In this document: one piece after another, positions 8,673 through 15,637 of the stretch | Position numbering within the stretch: position 1 is the first letter of the stretch | Layout: each line of letters opens with the position of its first letter | Assembly (NCBI RefSeq): GCF_900111255.1 | Contig: NZ_FOGP01000001.1 | Location: forward strand, 98,894 to 162,893 | From: Parafannyhessea umbonata | GTDB taxonomy: Bacteria > Actinomycetota > Coriobacteriia > Coriobacteriales > Atopobiaceae | DNA: 64,000 nt | Reading direction: 5' to 3' | Program-made: the position numbers and the translations under genes | The notes under the pieces: model-generated | Seen by the model: only the letters and a program-made list of their open reading frames with translations | Told to the model about the DNA's origin: nothing | Databases searched by the model: none

Positions 8673-9257
8673 ATGGTAGACATCAAGATCTCAGGGCGTA
8701 AGGTCTCGGTTACCGATTCCATGCGCGAGCATGTGAACGAGAAGATCGGCGAAGCCCTTAAGGTATTTGACATCAAGCCTATGTCCTGCGACGTGGTTCT
8801 GCGTGTTGACAGAAAGCGCACTGATCCCGACCGCAAGAAGTGCGAGGTCACCGTCTACGTTCGCGACAATGTCGTTCGCGTCGAGGCCTCCGACAACGAC
8901 ATGTACGGCGCAATCGACACCGCCGCCATCAAGGTCAGTCGCCAGCTCCGCAAGTACAAGACGCGCATCATCGACCACAAGCACCACTCCGCTCGCGAGG
9001 ACGTCAGAATCTCCCTTGAGCCCGTCGCGGACCTGGCCGAGCTGATTGACGACGAGGACGACGCCCTCGTCCGCGAGAAGTTCGTCGACCTCAGGCCCAT
9101 GAGCGAGGAGGAGGCCCTGGTCCAGACCGACCTGCTCGGTCACGATTTCTATGTTTTCGAAAATGCGGCCACTGGTCTCATCAACGTAATCTATCACCGT
9201 CATAATGGGGGTTACGGAATCATCAAGCCCAAGTTCGAGTTCGAGGACGAGGCTTAA
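8673..9257 (+). CDS. hpf: Ribosome hibernation promoting factor, long form
   Basis: This protein (also called RaiA) binds the 30S decoding region and, in the long form, dimerises 70S ribosomes into inactive 100S particles in stationary phase. Residues 1-105 form the S30AE domain (MVDIKISGRKVSVTDSMRE at the start, basic VSRQLRKYKTRIIDHKHH at its end). Residues 130-190 are the long-form C-terminal domain, with FVDLRPMSEEEALVQTDLL and the conserved FYVFENAATGLINVIYHR. The length of 194 is normal for the long type. A strong AGGAGG precedes the start. It lies one gene downstream of the candidate raiA RNA. Confidence 0.96.
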   Translation: MVDIKISGRKVSVTDSMREHVNEKIGEALKVFDIKPMSCDVVLRVDRKRTDPDRKKCEVTVYVRDNVVRVEASDNDMYGAIDTAAIKVSRQLRKYKTRIIDHKHHSAREDVRISLEPVADLAELIDDEDDALVREKFVDLRPMSEEEALVQTDLLGHDFYVFENAATGLINVIYHRHNGGYGIIKPKFEFEDEA

Positions 9258-9276
9258 AGCACATTAAGGACAGTTA

Positions 9277-10290
9277 ATGGGTCAAGGCAATCCCACAACT
9301 GATGAGTCTCAGGTTTCGGCCGGCGCCAGTGGCGCCGGCCGCGCCTATCATCAGAAGAGCAATGTAAAGATCATCGTCGACTCCACCGCTGACTACGCCC
9401 CCGAGGTCGTTCGTCAGCTCGGCGTCGAGGTCATCCCGTTCACCTACGTCACGCCCGAGGGCGAGAAGGTGGACGACATGTGGCAGACGTCCGATCCGCA
9501 TGAGTTCTACGAGCACATGCGCAAGAACCCGGACGAGCACTACACCACCTGCGCCGTCACTCCCGGTCGCTACTTCGACGTGTTCGAGCGTGCGGCCAAG
9601 GAGGGCGTCCCGACCATCTACATGGGCCTTACCGAGGGACTTTCCTCCTCCATCAACTCGGCGCGCCAGGCTGCGGAGATGATCCGCGAGAAGTACCCGG
9701 ACTTTGAGATCTACGTTCTGGACAACAAGGTTGACTCCGCCGCCGGCGAGCTTCTGGCGATTGAGGTCGTCCACCAGGCCGAGAGCGGCCTTTCCGCGCG
9801 GGAGCTGTTCGAGTGGGCGGAGGACGCCCGCAACTTCATCCACGGCTACTTCACCCTGGACAGCTTCGACGCGCTCGCGGCGGGCGGGCGCATTCCTCCC
9901 GCGGCGGCGACCGTGGGCGGCAAGCTCGACATCAAGCCCGAGCTCTCGTACGACCTCAACGGCGCGCTGACGCTGCGTGGCATGTGCCGCGGCCGCAAGA
10001 AGGCGCTCAAGGCCATCATGCAGGACTTCCGCGACAACTACGCTCATGACCCCTCGCTTCCCCTTGCCATCGTCTCGACGGATGCCGAGAAGGACGCGGA
10101 CTGGCTTGAGCGCGAGGTCCGCAAGGAGAAGGGCTGCGAGGACGTTGCAATCATCCGCAGCACCGTTTCGCCCATCCTGGGCTCCCACGTGGGCCCCGGC
10201 ATGGTCGCCCTCGTGTTCTGGGGCGTCGACCGTCGCGAGAAGATCTCTCTGACCGACCGCATCGCCCGCAAGGTCAAGCGCGGCGAGTAG
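9277..10290 (+). CDS. DegV family protein (fatty acid-binding)
   Basis: DegV/FakB-type proteins bind a single fatty acid and can present it to a fatty acid kinase. The sequence has the family start KIIVDSTADYAPE, the fatty-acid-binding region TCAVTPGRYFDVFERA and YMGLTEGLSSSINSARQAA, then LAAGGRIPPAAATVGGKLDIKP and the C-terminal SPILGSHVGPGMVALVFWG. A non-conserved leader of about 30 residues, rich in Gly/Ser, precedes the domain. It starts 19 bases after hpf, with AAGGA before the ATG, and is probably co-transcribed with it and with the dehydrogenase that follows. Confidence 0.92.
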   Translation: MGQGNPTTDESQVSAGASGAGRAYHQKSNVKIIVDSTADYAPEVVRQLGVEVIPFTYVTPEGEKVDDMWQTSDPHEFYEHMRKNPDEHYTTCAVTPGRYFDVFERAAKEGVPTIYMGLTEGLSSSINSARQAAEMIREKYPDFEIYVLDNKVDSAAGELLAIEVVHQAESGLSARELFEWAEDARNFIHGYFTLDSFDALAAGGRIPPAAATVGGKLDIKPELSYDLNGALTLRGMCRGRKKALKAIMQDFRDNYAHDPSLPLAIVSTDAEKDADWLEREVRKEKGCEDVAIIRSTVSPILGSHVGPGMVALVFWGVDRREKISLTDRIARKVKRGE

Positions 10291-10318
10291 CGCGACTAGC
10301 AGAAAAGGACTTGATCTT

Positions 10319-11302
10319 ATGGCAGTAGTGCGCGTGCATGACGTTGCGTTCATCGGCACCGGCATCATGGGTGCCCCCATCTGCGAGCACATCATGGAGG
10401 CCGGCTATTCGCTGACCGTCTACAACCGAAGCAAGGAGAGGGCCGAGCATCTCATCGAGAAGGGTGCCGCGTGGGCCGATTCTCCCGCGGCGGCTGCGGC
10501 CAAGGCCGACGTCGTCTTCACCATGCTAGGCTTTCCCGATGACGTCGAGGAGGTCTACTTCGGCAAGAACGGCCTGCTCGAGGGCAGCAAGAAGGGCGCG
10601 TGGCTCGTCGACCTGACCACCAGCGCGCCCGAGCTTGCACGTGAGCTCCATGACGCGGCCGAGGTCATGGACAAGCACTCGTTCGACTGCCCCGTCACCG
10701 GCGGCCAGTCGGGTGCACAGGACGGCACGCTGACCCTCATGGTCGGCGCCGACGAGCAGACGACGGCGATCCTCAGGCCTTTGCTCGAGTCCTTCTCGTC
10801 CAAGATCTACTACTTCGGCAAGGCTGGCGACGGCCAGGCGGCCAAGCTCTGCAACCAGGTCTCCCTGGCCTCCTGTATGGTCGGCTACGCCGACGCGCTT
10901 GCGCTGGCGAAGCAGTCCGGCCTTGACCTTGACCAGATCGTCGACGTGATGTGCGACGGCATGGGCGGCTCGGTGGCGATGGAGCGCCTGGCGCCCAAGT
11001 CCGTGGAGGGCGACTTCCGACCGGGCTTCCTGTCCGAGCACATGCGCAAGGACATCGCGCTCGCGCTGCGCCACGCCGAGGACCTCGACCTGAAGCTCCC
11101 CGGCGCAGAGACCGCGTTCAACCTGTATGACGTGCTGTGCCAGATCGGCGGAAAGCGTCTGGGCACCCAGGCCATCTCCGTCCTCTACGAGGACGAGGCC
11201 GAGGCGGCCGCGGCGGGGCTTGACTGGTCCCTTATCGAGCCTGCGGCCGATGACGCGCACGAGCACCACCACTGTCACCATCACCATCACGGGGAGGAGT
11301 AG
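10319..11302 (+). CDS. NAD(P)-dependent beta-hydroxyacid dehydrogenase with His-rich tail
   Basis: This is a member of the 3-hydroxyisobutyrate dehydrogenase/tartronate semialdehyde reductase family, a cytoplasmic oxidoreductase acting on a small beta-hydroxyacid. The N-terminal Rossmann motif is GTGIMGAP, followed by VTGGQSGAQDGTLTLMVGA (substrate-binding loop) and the catalytic Lys region GDGQAAKLCNQ. The C terminus is unusual: the last 17 residues read DDAHEHHHCHHHHHGEE, ten residues being His, plus a Cys. This could bind Ni, Zn or Cu. Exact substrate is unknown. The gene is followed after two bases by a small membrane protein gene. Confidence 0.88.
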   Translation: MAVVRVHDVAFIGTGIMGAPICEHIMEAGYSLTVYNRSKERAEHLIEKGAAWADSPAAAAAKADVVFTMLGFPDDVEEVYFGKNGLLEGSKKGAWLVDLTTSAPELARELHDAAEVMDKHSFDCPVTGGQSGAQDGTLTLMVGADEQTTAILRPLLESFSSKIYYFGKAGDGQAAKLCNQVSLASCMVGYADALALAKQSGLDLDQIVDVMCDGMGGSVAMERLAPKSVEGDFRPGFLSEHMRKDIALALRHAEDLDLKLPGAETAFNLYDVLCQIGGKRLGTQAISVLYEDEAEAAAAGLDWSLIEPAADDAHEHHHCHHHHHGEE

Positions 11303-11304
11303 AC

Positions 11305-11733
11305 TTGGTCGCTTTCTCGATGGCAATCGTCGCAATTCTCCTCTTGCTCTTTGGCATCATCCTTGGCGTGCGAATTGGTGGCGAGCTGGCTCGCTCGTGC
11401 GTGACCAAGAAGGAATATTGGACTGCCAACCTCAAGATCATTGGGGTTGGCGTCGTTGTATCTGCAATCGTCTCCGCAACGGGCTGGATCATGCTCGCGG
11501 GCATTCCCGTTGGTGGCATGGCTGGGGCCATCGCGGCGCTCAAGATGGACTTCGGCGAGAGCGTCGGTCCCTGGAAGTTCCACGACACCTTCTTCAGGGT
11601 CAACAAGGACCAGGTCAGGCGCGCGGGCAACGCCAACGCCGAAGCCGTTCGCCGCGCGCGTCGCGACGGCACTCCCGAGCCTGAGATCATCAGCGTCCAA
11701 GATGATGCGGATGACGCGAACAAAGGAGAATAG
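11305..11733 (+). CDS. Small membrane protein, two transmembrane helices
   Basis: I do not recognise this 142-residue protein. The N terminus is a hydrophobic helix (AIVAILLLLFGIILGV) ending in a Gly/Arg turn. A second helix at about residues 46-72 is rich in Gly and Val. The remaining 60 residues are soluble, basic then acidic (VRRARRDGTPEPEI, DDADDANKGE). It starts with TTG at 11305 behind GGAGGAG. It sits between the dehydrogenase and the NYN-domain gene with gaps of a few bases, so it is probably in one transcript with both. The topology suggests the tail is cytoplasmic, but this is an inference. Confidence 0.75.
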   Translation: MVAFSMAIVAILLLLFGIILGVRIGGELARSCVTKKEYWTANLKIIGVGVVVSAIVSATGWIMLAGIPVGGMAGAIAALKMDFGESVGPWKFHDTFFRVNKDQVRRAGNANAEAVRRARRDGTPEPEIISVQDDADDANKGE

Positions 11734-11742
11734 GAGGGGCGC

Positions 11743-12519
11743 ATGAGCGAGAACAGCCAAAGCTCCCTTGCGGTCCTAATTGACTATGAGAACCTTGCCC
11801 TGGGAACGGGCAAGAGGAAGAGGAACGGCCACCAGGAGCCTGGTCCCAGGCCGGACGTGAAGCGCATCCTCGAGCGTCTGGTTGACAAGGGGAGGATCGC
11901 CGCGAAGCGCGCGTATTGCGACTGGCAGCGCTTCGATGACGCCATCACGCCCCTGCACGAGCTCGGAATCGAGCTAATCGAGATCCCCGACAGGGCGTTT
12001 ACCGGCAAGAACTCGGCCGACATCCGCCTCTCGGTCGACGCGATGGAGATGGCGCTCACAAAGGAGCACATCGACACCTTCGCGATTCTCTCGGGGGACT
12101 CGGACTTCTCGCCGCTCGTTGCCAAGCTCAAGGAGTTTGGCAAGACGGTCATCGGCGTGGGCATGAAGCAGGCCACGAGCTCGCTTCTGACCGAGGTCTG
12201 CGACGAGTTCATCTTCTACGAGGACATCGTTTCCGCCGGCGGCGTGCCGGACTTCTCGCCCAAGGTGTCCAAGGACAAGCACCCTTGCTACAAGCTCCTG
12301 TTCGAGACTATTGACGCCCTCCAGGGCGAGAGCGACTCCGCGATCCTGGCATCGCGCCTGAAGGACACCATGAAGCGCAAGCGTCCGCAGTTCAGCGAGA
12401 GGAGCTATGGCTACCGCTCGTTCTCGATGCTCCTGCGCGAGGCATCCAAGCTTGGTTTTATCGACATCCACCAGGACCCCAAGAGCGGAACCGTCATGGT
12501 GGACGGTTTCTGCGAATAG
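11743..12519 (+). CDS. NYN domain protein with OST-HTH/LOTUS domain
   Basis: The N-terminal half is a NYN (LabA-like PIN-fold) domain: LAVLIDYENLAL holds the first Asp, AYCDWQRF follows, and ILSGDSDFSPLVAKLKEFGKTVIGVG contains the acidic pair of the presumed nuclease site. The C-terminal 90 residues look like an OST-HTH/LOTUS RNA-binding domain (RPQFSERSYGYRSFSMLLREA). Proteins with this pair of domains are thought to be RNases or RNA regulators. It begins nine bases after the small membrane protein and is followed by a HEAT-like protein gene, suggesting a three- or four-gene unit. Confidence 0.9.
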   Translation: MSENSQSSLAVLIDYENLALGTGKRKRNGHQEPGPRPDVKRILERLVDKGRIAAKRAYCDWQRFDDAITPLHELGIELIEIPDRAFTGKNSADIRLSVDAMEMALTKEHIDTFAILSGDSDFSPLVAKLKEFGKTVIGVGMKQATSSLLTEVCDEFIFYEDIVSAGGVPDFSPKVSKDKHPCYKLLFETIDALQGESDSAILASRLKDTMKRKRPQFSERSYGYRSFSMLLREASKLGFIDIHQDPKSGTVMVDGFCE

Positions 12520-12537
12520 CACTGAGAAAGGAACGAC

Positions 12538-13113
12538 ATGGCAGAAGACAGCAACAGGGAAGAGCAGGCGCTCTCCGCGCTTATGGACCAGCTTGCGGGC
12601 TCCAACCGCCGTCGTCGCCAGGAGGCGGCGCGACTTGTCGCGGCGATTGCCGCGGCCAGCCCCGACCAGCTTCTTGACTACACCGACGATCTGCTCGAGG
12701 CGCTCGAGCGTCCCGAGGCCCAGACCCGTTGGCAGGTGCTCGACACCCTCACTCTCATGGCTGCGGTAGACAGCGACAAGGTCGCGGAGGCCTTCGACGG
12801 TGCGGAGGCATCGCTGTTTGACGACAGCTCCGCCGCGGTGCGCCTGTCTGCCTTCAAGTTCCTCGCGCGCCTTGGTGCCTCCTCGCCCGAGAACGCGGAC
12901 AAGGTCTGGCCGCTGCTCGACGAGGCGATTCAGTGCTACCACGGCGACCCCGAGTACCACGACATGCTCGTGGCGCTCCTGGACTTCGCCAAGGGCTCCA
13001 TCTCGCCCGCCGTGGCCTCGGCGCTCCGCGACCGCGTCGCATTCGACGCGGAGAACGGACACGGATACGTCAAGGGCTTCTCCGCGGAGATTATCGCGGC
13101 CCTCGCGGAGTAG
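12538..13113 (+). CDS. HEAT-repeat-like helical protein
   Basis: This 191-residue protein is almost entirely alpha-helical, with repeated helix pairs such as RRRQEAARLVAAIAAASPDQL, TRWQVLDTLTLMAAVDSDKV and AAVRLSAFKFLARLGASSPENA. These resemble HEAT/ARM repeats, which make protein-protein interfaces. It is acidic overall and has no signal peptide or membrane helix. A GAAAGGAACGAC site precedes the ATG. Its position directly after the NYN/LOTUS gene suggests a partner or scaffold for that protein, which is an inference from context only. Confidence 0.75.
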   Translation: MAEDSNREEQALSALMDQLAGSNRRRRQEAARLVAAIAAASPDQLLDYTDDLLEALERPEAQTRWQVLDTLTLMAAVDSDKVAEAFDGAEASLFDDSSAAVRLSAFKFLARLGASSPENADKVWPLLDEAIQCYHGDPEYHDMLVALLDFAKGSISPAVASALRDRVAFDAENGHGYVKGFSAEIIAALAE

Positions 13114-13278
13114 CGTCTGGCCGTCGGGGTAGGTTCAGAACCTGTTAAGCGATGACCGTTCCTCGTGGCACTTACCGCCGCGCAGGTCGTGCCCGCATCG
13201 TTTGTAGTAGCATTTTTTCAGCATGTGTTAGTGAGTAAGCGTATGTCTTGCAGGGCAGGACATTTGGAGGTAGGTATC

Positions 13279-14364
13279 ATGGCGGAGCCCAACACTCCCG
13301 ATAACGACGAGCTCGAGACGAACGAGGTCGAGACCGTCGACCAGGACGCTTCTATCGATGAGAAGGACGAGCAGTCCTCCGTCGAGGCTGATTCGACCAA
13401 GGAGGAGTCGCCTTCCAAGAAGGATGATGACTCCAAGAAGGATCAGCCCAAGAAGAAGGAGAAGAGGAGCAAGAAGAACCGCGAGCGCAAGCAGGCCGAG
13501 GCCTCGAAGTCCAAGCCCAAGCCGGTCAAGATGCGCTCCGGCCTCTCCACGCCTATCTGGGTCGTCATCGCCCTGGTCTGCGCCATCGCGGGTGGGCTCA
13601 TCGGCCACTTTGCGTTTGGCGGCGGCTCGGGTTCCGCGCTGAGCGGCAGGACCTCCGTCTCCGAGGGTGAGCTCGACACCACCATCGCAACCTACACCTA
13701 CAACGGCCAGACCACCTCGGTCTCCATTCGCGACGTCATCAATGCCTCCTCCACGCTCGAGGCCTCCAAAAACGATGATGGAACGTACAAGATTCCCTCG
13801 GCCGACAACGCGCTCTCCTACGTCCGCAACGAGATCGTGATGAAGGAGGCCGAGAACCGCGGCATCAACGTTTCTGACGACGACGTCGCGGCCTACGCCG
13901 AGGAGACCCTTGGCTCCAGCGACTTCGACAGCATCGCGTCCAGCTACAACATGGACTCCGATACCGTCAAGAGCCTCATCAGGGACTCCGCCACGATGAA
14001 GGCCCTTCGCGACCAGGTGGTCACCACGCAGAGCGCCACTGCGCCTACCGCTCCCACGCAGCCCGCTGACGGCAACACCGAGGCCACGTCTGCCGATTAC
14101 GCCAAGTACATCATCGATCTCGCCGGCGACGAGTGGGATGCCCAGAACAACACCTGGAAGTCGACGGACGGCGTCTACGCCTCCGCGCTCTCGAGTTACA
14201 CGATCACCAACGACTCCGCGTCCTACGCTGCCGCACAGGCCGCCTACTATGTTGCCTACCAGCAGTACTCCACGACGCAGTCTGCCGTTTCCAGCGAGTG
14301 GACCGACTTCGTCAACGGCCTCCTCTGCAACGGCAACGTCACGCTCTCCTCGCTCGTTGCCTAG
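13279..14364 (+). CDS. Membrane-anchored SurA/PpiC-like chaperone domain protein
   Basis: Residues 1-85 are highly charged and Lys/Glu-rich (KKDDDSKKDQPKKKEKRSKKN), so they are likely cytoplasmic and disordered. A single membrane helix follows (PIWVVIALVCAIAGGLIGHFAF), then an extracytoplasmic domain. Its sequence (DNALSYVRNEIVMKEAENRGINVSDDDV) is typical of the SurA N-terminal chaperone domain of peptidyl-prolyl isomerases. No catalytic PpiC core is evident, so this may be a chaperone-only protein. I start at ATG 13279 behind GGAGGTAGG; the longer upstream frame lacks a site. A terminator follows at 14398. Confidence 0.75.
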   Translation: MAEPNTPDNDELETNEVETVDQDASIDEKDEQSSVEADSTKEESPSKKDDDSKKDQPKKKEKRSKKNRERKQAEASKSKPKPVKMRSGLSTPIWVVIALVCAIAGGLIGHFAFGGGSGSALSGRTSVSEGELDTTIATYTYNGQTTSVSIRDVINASSTLEASKNDDGTYKIPSADNALSYVRNEIVMKEAENRGINVSDDDVAAYAEETLGSSDFDSIASSYNMDSDTVKSLIRDSATMKALRDQVVTTQSATAPTAPTQPADGNTEATSADYAKYIIDLAGDEWDAQNNTWKSTDGVYASALSSYTITNDSASYAAAQAAYYVAYQQYSTTQSAVSSEWTDFVNGLLCNGNVTLSSLVA

Positions 14365-14397: not shown

Positions 14398-14426
14398 GGG
14401 GCGGGACCACGTGTCCCGCCCCTTTT
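14398..14426 (+). terminator. Rho-independent terminator
   Basis: GGGGCGGGAC (14398-14407) pairs with GTCCCGCCCC (14413-14422), followed by TTTT. It ends the transcript of the SurA-like gene. Confidence 0.85.
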
Positions 14427-14446
14427 CTTACGTGTGGAGGTAGCCA

Positions 14447-15637
14447 ATGCGAGTGATTGTCAGCGAGTGCCTGCGAGGAACGGCGTGTCGCTACGATGGG
14501 GGAGCCAAGCCGGTCGATGCCGTGCAGGAGCTATGTCAGAAGGTGGACGTGGTCGGCGTCTGCCCCGAGCTTGCCAGCGGCCTTCCCGTGCCGCGACCGC
14601 CCGCGGAGCAGCGTGACGGGCGCGTGTGGCTCAAGGGTGGCACCGACGTCACACGGGAGTTCGAGGCTGGATCCCAGAGGTCGCTCCTCAAGGCTCGGGC
14701 CTCTGGCGCCCGACTTGCCGTCCTCAAGGCGAAAAGTCCCTCGTGCGGGGTACATGTCATCTACGATGGGACCTATACAGGACAGTTGACCAAGGGGGAG
14801 GGTGTCTTTGCCCGTCTCCTTGAGAATGAGGGGGTCTGCGTGGTAACCGAGGACATCGTTAAGAGCTGCAAGCCTTCCGTCGAGCATCCTATTGCCATCG
14901 TGCTGGGAACGGGATTGGGACAGCTGGCCTCTCTGGTCAAGCCCGTGCGCCGCATTGACTATCATGACATCAAGGGCTTCCCGCGGGATGCGCGACCGGT
15001 TCCCGGGCACAAGTTCGAGGCGACCATAGGCACCATCGACGACGTTCCCGTAGTGGTTTATCCTGGGCGCCCTCACCTTTACCAAGGCTACTCTGCTTCC
15101 GAGGTCACGTCCCTGGTGCGTCACGCGCATTCGCTCGGCTGCAGGGACATCATCTTCAGCTGCGCAACGGGCTACATCGCCGGGAACGCCAAGGCGGGCC
15201 TCGGAATCCTGGCCGACCAGATCAACCTCACGGGCGTCAATCCCCTTGCGGACTGGGACGAGGTCCGAGAGGTCGACAGCCCCTTCGTCGACATGACGGA
15301 TGCCTATGCGCCCTATCTGCGCGCTGTCGCGCGAGGCGTTGCGGACGATCTGGGGATAGAGATCGACGAGGGCGTCTATTGTGGCGTGCTTGGACCGACG
15401 TTCGAGACCAAGGCAGAGGCCAACATGATGCGCGTGATGGGTGTCTCGTACGTCGGCATGTCGACGGCGAACGAGGTCATCATGGCTCGCGCGTTGGGCA
15501 TGAACGTGCTTGGCCTGACCCTGGCCGCCAACGAGAGCGGTGCCGACACGGTCACTCACGAGGAGGTCCTTCAGAAGGCCGCCGCAAAGGCGGATGACTT
15601 CGAGCGGCTAGTCCGGGGTATCATCCACATGCTGTAG
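14447..15637 (+). CDS. DUF523 (TudS-like)/purine nucleoside phosphorylase fusion
   Basis: Two domains are fused in frame. Residues 1-140 are DUF523, the family that includes the [4Fe-4S] thiouracil desulfidase TudS. The Cys residues expected for the cluster are present: SEC8LRG (with C14), VC39PEL and SPSC100G. Residues 146-396 are a trimeric-type purine nucleoside phosphorylase: VLGTGLG (phosphate loop), PGHKFE, YPGRPHLYQGY, GVLGPTFETKAEANMM and VGMSTANEVIMARALGM. PNP splits purine nucleosides with phosphate to base and ribose 1-phosphate. The fusion suggests salvage of thiolated nucleosides: phosphorolysis plus removal of sulfur. GGAGGTAGCCA precedes the ATG, and there is no stop or new start between the domains. 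The joint function is an inference. Confidence 0.88.
   Translation: MRVIVSECLRGTACRYDGGAKPVDAVQELCQKVDVVGVCPELASGLPVPRPPAEQRDGRVWLKGGTDVTREFEAGSQRSLLKARASGARLAVLKAKSPSCGVHVIYDGTYTGQLTKGEGVFARLLENEGVCVVTEDIVKSCKPSVEHPIAIVLGTGLGQLASLVKPVRRIDYHDIKGFPRDARPVPGHKFEATIGTIDDVPVVVYPGRPHLYQGYSASEVTSLVRHAHSLGCRDIIFSCATGYIAGNAKAGLGILADQINLTGVNPLADWDEVREVDSPFVDMTDAYAPYLRAVARGVADDLGIEIDEGVYCGVLGPTFETKAEANMMRVMGVSYVGMSTANEVIMARALGMNVLGLTLAANESGADTVTHEEVLQKAAAKADDFERLVRGIIHML

Follow-up and report, generated by a model that had tools for sequence, protein, structure and literature searches.

A TudS desulfidase domain fused to a purine nucleoside phosphorylase domain in Coriobacteriales: a candidate two-activity nucleotide-salvage enzyme

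The window, by which we mean the whole 64,000-nucleotide stretch of Parafannyhessea umbonata DNA that was analysed, carries on its + strand, where the gene parts, Shine-Dalgarno sequence and hairpin located below also lie, a single ORF of 396 aa (14447-15637) in which a TudS/DUF523 domain runs without any frame break into a PNP_UDP_1 domain. PF04463 matches residues 3-136 with 140.9 bits (Pfam cut-off 34.7) and PF01048 matches residues 148-393 with 126.2 bits (cut-off 25.1), confirming the in-frame joining of DUF523 and purine nucleoside phosphorylase (PNP) domains that had been proposed in the first-pass annotation. The gene starts with an ATG preceded by a Shine-Dalgarno sequence, GGAGG, at 14436-14440. 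Upstream lies a conserved block common to the order's genomes (8673-14364 in the window), with genes for HPF-like, DegV-like, NAD-binding dehydrogenase-like, NYN-OST-HTH, HEAT-like and SurA-like proteins, these names having been given by eye or from weak matches except for NYN/OST-HTH. In the order's genomes the fusion gene usually lies directly downstream of the conserved SurA-like gene, often overlapping it or nearly so, and in the window the two are separated by a terminator-like hairpin (14398-14422), a type of match found 4 times in the region against 2.8 expected by chance. Conservation of the neighbourhood is confined to this upstream block. A functional link with the downstream xanthine phosphoribosyltransferase gene was considered and dropped, since this neighbour is not conserved, and it is weakened further by the tRNA-Thr gene and the terminator-like site that intervene in the window. 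AlphaFold2 models the full-length protein with confidence (pLDDT 93, pTM 0.92).

The TudS domain (14453-14854) aligns with the TudS crystal enzyme 6Z92 (E 3.9e-27), and in this alignment Cys8 (codon 14468-14470), Cys39 (14561-14563) and Cys100 (14744-14746) correspond to the ligands Cys10, Cys43 and Cys104; these three predicted cluster ligands are kept in 44/44 fused homologues. Cys14, which had been listed with them in the first-pass annotation, does not hold up as a cluster residue: because it lies opposite Val16 of 6Z92 and is not conserved, being Val in 17 of the 44 homologues, it is predicted not to be a ligand. Ten TudS residues have been assigned to cluster binding, catalysis and contact with 4-thio-UMP (Cys10, Arg17, Tyr18, Cys43, Glu45, Ser101, Pro102, Ser103, Cys104 and Tyr110; PMC10611767). 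All ten are present in the window protein and occur in 41-44 of the 44 fused homologues, including the equivalents of the catalytic Glu45 (here Glu41, codon 14567-14569), of the catalytic Ser101 and Ser103 (here Ser97 and Ser99, before Cys100; 44/44 and 41/44, respectively) and of the contact residues Arg17, Tyr18, Pro102 and Tyr110. Judged by these residues, the site would be that of a 4-thio-UMP desulfidase, that is, a pyrimidine site; the known TudS favours nucleotides over nucleosides and bases (PMC10611767). The TudS half is under purifying selection, with dN/dS values of 0.10-0.42; these dN/dS figures come from a simple pairwise method, and dS is high for some of the pairs.

A short conserved linker (residues 137-147, ending in KSCKPSVEH; 14855-14887), with a helix at residues 135-140 in the model, joins the two domains; this C.PS.EHP-type motif occurs in the fused proteins, and most stand-alone relatives begin with it as well. 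The trimeric-type PNP domain that follows (14888-15625) scores above the cut-off of the NCBIfam PNP equivalog NF006054 (232 bits, cut-off 218) and of TIGR01697 (201, cut-off 197), and under that of TIGR01700; in a fold search, the PNP half of the model matched solved trimeric PNPs. In human PNP numbering, with 14 positions of sequence and numbering checked by script, at least 42 of the 43 fused proteins retain S33/T, H64, R84, H86, Y88, A116, F159, E201, M219, S220, N243 and H257, a set that covers catalytic, phosphate and 6-oxopurine-recognition positions; position 33 is Ser or Thr (Thr in the window protein) and position 200 mostly aromatic. The 6-oxopurine contacts Glu201 and Asn243 are each among these, kept in 42/43, and the contacts of the window PNP would match 6-oxopurine recognition. 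Three further positions are substituted: E89Q in 43/43 fused proteins, N115C in 42/43, and G119, which is mostly Ala and is Tyr in the window protein. Together they mark a PNP subfamily, possibly with shifted kinetics or base preference. Gln89 may be older than the fusion, since it is also present in a relative (L103) without a nearby TudS. Purifying selection on the PNP half (pairwise dN/dS 0.03-0.20) is usually stronger than on the TudS half. No trimeric-type PNP (PNP-I) besides the fused protein was found in this P. umbonata genome, the other two PF01048 proteins being MTA/SAH-nucleosidase-like.

The same domain order was sought in other genomes, and full-length fusions, counted by hand from the match list with query coverage of about 1-396 as the criterion, are present in 106 of 399 Coriobacteriales genomes: 94/140 in Atopobiaceae and 12/67 in Coriobacteriaceae (Collinsella and relatives). 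With so many genomes carrying it in the same order, single-contig ones included, the fusion is not an artefact. The named records belong to Olsenella, Parafannyhessea, Tractidigestivibacter, Atopobium, Olegusella, Kribbibacterium and Collinsella. No full-length fusion was found outside Coriobacteriales among 397 sampled genomes of the phylum, and the best 80 of the 588 confirmed loci contained none from beyond the order either; independent TudS-PNP fusions beyond the order are possible. A fold search against viral models gave weak PNP-fold matches only. One TudS per genome is the rule (260 of the 263 TudS-bearing genomes), and the other three cases look like contig duplicates or fragments. In Atopobium sp. 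oral taxon 199 (L075 and L270) TudS is intact and an apparent frameshift, which could be a sequencing error, interrupts the PNP half. An in-frame TGA flagged in the TudS genes of G486, G526 and G587, which are genomes from beyond the order, proved to be the ordinary stop codon, and a selenocysteine case was rejected there. According to published work, single-domain TudS and TudS-DUF1722 make up about 99% of TudS sequences, the latter being RudS, in which a fusion partner redirects TudS to tRNA (PMC11417400). Our literature searches found no study of the TudS-PNP arrangement, which is a real, conserved and apparently undescribed architecture in the TudS family.

The two halves have also had separate fates. 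(i) The PNP tree unites fused and stand-alone members in a clade separate from the canonical PNPs, and in that clade the stand-alone PNPs branch from among the fused ones at several points, the starred branches forcing at least 3-4 changes; tree roots and loss counts here are parsimony inferences. The Atopobiaceae genus g30 has stand-alone PNPs and no TudS anywhere in the genome. Several lineages thus appear to have lost TudS and retained the PNP. In four stand-alone PNPs from g30-type genomes (L084, L159, L160 and L162), which sit on a long branch, His64 is replaced by Arg or Lys and Glu89 by His or Lys, and their function may have changed or been lost. (ii) In Collinsella, a free TudS is found in 0/9 fused genomes versus 7/8 genomes whose PNP has lost TudS (Fisher p 4e-4, a value that ignores relatedness, the counts being non-independent and representing about three lineages). 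Because this free TudS belongs to a distant TudS clade (99/97 split in the TudS tree), it is a replacement and not a product of fission; since it replaces the fused domain, the latter probably does ordinary TudS work. (iii) The Atopobiaceae genus g31, whose TudS domain falls within the fused TudS clade, has in place of the PNP a tail that is at most about 110 residues long, and a search for another PNP-I there recognised none. The tail is read as a PNP remnant from its position, its colinear motifs and the TudS tree, with weak sequence scores (5.4 and 1.3 bits versus 2.7 for the best of 1000 shuffles); g31 has apparently lost the PNP and retained TudS. At four g31 loci (L228, 3089-4066; L266, 2871-3626; L236; L267), an intact TudS followed by an apparently degenerate PNP tail occupies the same syntenic site.

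As to origin, two genera of family f7 encode TudS and PNP as neighbouring, separate genes with the same order and strand (L161, 1838-3283; L219, 4037-5590), and in the PNP tree their PNPs form the sister group of the fused clade (100/95). Gene adjacency therefore probably preceded the fusion; in the TudS tree the f7 TudS does not fall next to the fused one, so that the step from adjacent to fused is read from the PNP half. The simplest history would run from adjacency to fusion and then to repeated loss of either half. The adjacent-gene PNPs themselves are divergent and have no equivalents of Glu201 and Asn243, and one of these f7 genomes, G358, also has a separate canonical PNP.

From the architecture, the residue conservation, the phylogeny and the separate losses and replacement, we infer a two-activity nucleotide-salvage enzyme, desulfurating s4U nucleotides and phosphorolysing purine nucleosides without obligatory transfer between its sites, and we give this reading a probability of roughly 0.6. 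The N-terminal domain would bind a three-cysteine [4Fe-4S] cluster and desulfurate 4-thiouridine nucleotides, mainly 4-thio-UMP, from degraded s4U-containing tRNA, and the C-terminal domain would phosphorolyse 6-oxopurine nucleosides from the same RNA turnover; the genes would probably have been neighbours first, TudS before PNP, and fused later, and the hand-over of one substrate between both sites would not be required. Since the halves persist separately and an unrelated ordinary TudS can substitute, the most likely chemistry of the fused TudS is that of any other TudS, and that of the PNP is normal nucleoside phosphorolysis. Almost every genome of the family encodes ThiI and MnmA, so that sources of s4U and s2U exist; for the same reason, co-occurrence of the fusion with either of them was uninformative as a discriminator. 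The persistence of the association, adjacent in two f7 genera and then fused, could signal a tighter coupling, and the rigid predicted packing (pTM 0.92) would be compatible with communication between the sites.

Other readings were weighed against the two-activity enzyme. The PNP domain might have shifted, through Q89, C115 and A/Y119, to a different nucleoside while TudS remained a normal desulfidase. Such a shift would fit fixed replacements in the phosphate/ribose region, the f7 adjacent-gene PNPs that do without Glu201 and Asn243, and the canonical enzyme that G358 keeps besides; the near-universal retention of both contacts in the fused proteins and the position of the fused protein as the sole PNP-type enzyme of this genome make it unlikely. 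Doubtful to a greater degree is the coupled route of the first-pass annotation, in which the PNP domain frees a thio-base from a thio-nucleoside, or takes thiopurines (drugs included), and TudS then removes the sulfur. The fusion itself and the older gene adjacency speak for it, and natural 6-thioguanine is described in staphylococci (PMC7994395). However, the TudS contacts are those of a 4-thiouracil/4-thio-UMP site and the PNP contacts those of a 6-oxopurine site, TudS and PNP have each been lost on their own, the fused TudS of Collinsella has been replaced by an unrelated free one, and releasing the base first would yield a poorer substrate for an enzyme that prefers nucleotides (PMC10611767). 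A thiopurine or coupled-salvage role is thus possible and not favoured. A bolder version, in which the TudS-linked PNPs (with Q89/C115 and, in the f7 forms, even without Glu201/Asn243) would be a line adapted to sulfur-modified nucleosides and working in one complex with TudS as a dedicated thionucleoside salvage enzyme, is a longer shot still. PNP domains of this type are trimers, which together with E89Q and N115C could suggest a catalytically dead domain serving as a trimerising scaffold for TudS; this is very improbable, as the PNP outlives TudS in several lineages, is usually under the stronger purifying selection and keeps its catalytic His and phosphate-site residues. Least probable of all, in spite of the RudS precedent, is a RudS-like eraser of tRNA s4U with the PNP domain replacing DUF1722 as the tRNA-binding part: Pfam finds no DUF1722 in the window protein, the PNP site is conserved as that of an enzyme, and this PNP fold is not known to bind tRNA.

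PNP is not the only partner of TudS in the order. Eggerthellaceae-type genomes (f4) encode TudS fused N-terminally to DUF5662 (PF18907; L214, 1267-2529, and L216, 892-2007, with Pfam run on L214 only), and TudS-GNAT acetyltransferase (PF13302) proteins occur in families f4 and f8 (L220, 518-1609; L221, 3563-4582; L232, 3604-4746; L233, 2599-3828), Pfam having been run on L220 only and the other three assigned by sequence similarity. A Collinsella-family TudS ORF (L180, 1027-2166) has about 155 extra residues, VOC-type by eye; Pfam names only the TudS part of this ORF. Because GNAT and DUF5662 domains also occur as TudS partners within this order of bacteria, an argument for metabolic coupling or substrate transfer from the fusion alone is weakened, and a domain fusion by itself does not demonstrate a coupled pathway. 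The Coriobacteriales, with their fused, adjacent, TudS-lost, PNP-lost and TudS-replaced states, offer natural experiments on what the fusion means. If either activity acts on thiopurines, the enzyme would matter for the way in which Atopobiaceae and Collinsella of the mouth and gut metabolise drugs.

Compared with the known systems, the window protein shares with TudS, the thiouracil/4-thio-UMP desulfidase (DUF523/YbbK; PDB 6Z92-6Z96), the fold family and every residue reported for cluster binding, catalysis and substrate contact; that enzyme is a monomer by itself, whereas the domain here makes up the N-terminal half of a 396-aa protein. RudS (TudS-DUF1722), the tRNA s4U desulfidase, likewise has an N-terminal TudS fused to a second domain, but its partner is DUF1722 and it acts on tRNA, whereas the partner here is a PNP, PF04463 and PF01048 being the only domains found. 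With the trimeric PNP-I enzymes (PunA, human PNP, PDB 6TK9 and 8SWU), the C-terminal half has in common the fold (38% identity and a TM-score of 0.86 when normalised to 6TK9), the majority of the active-site residues and an NF006054 score above the cut-off; unlike them, it carries E89Q, N115C and G119A/Y, and the TudS domain takes the place of their N-terminal region.
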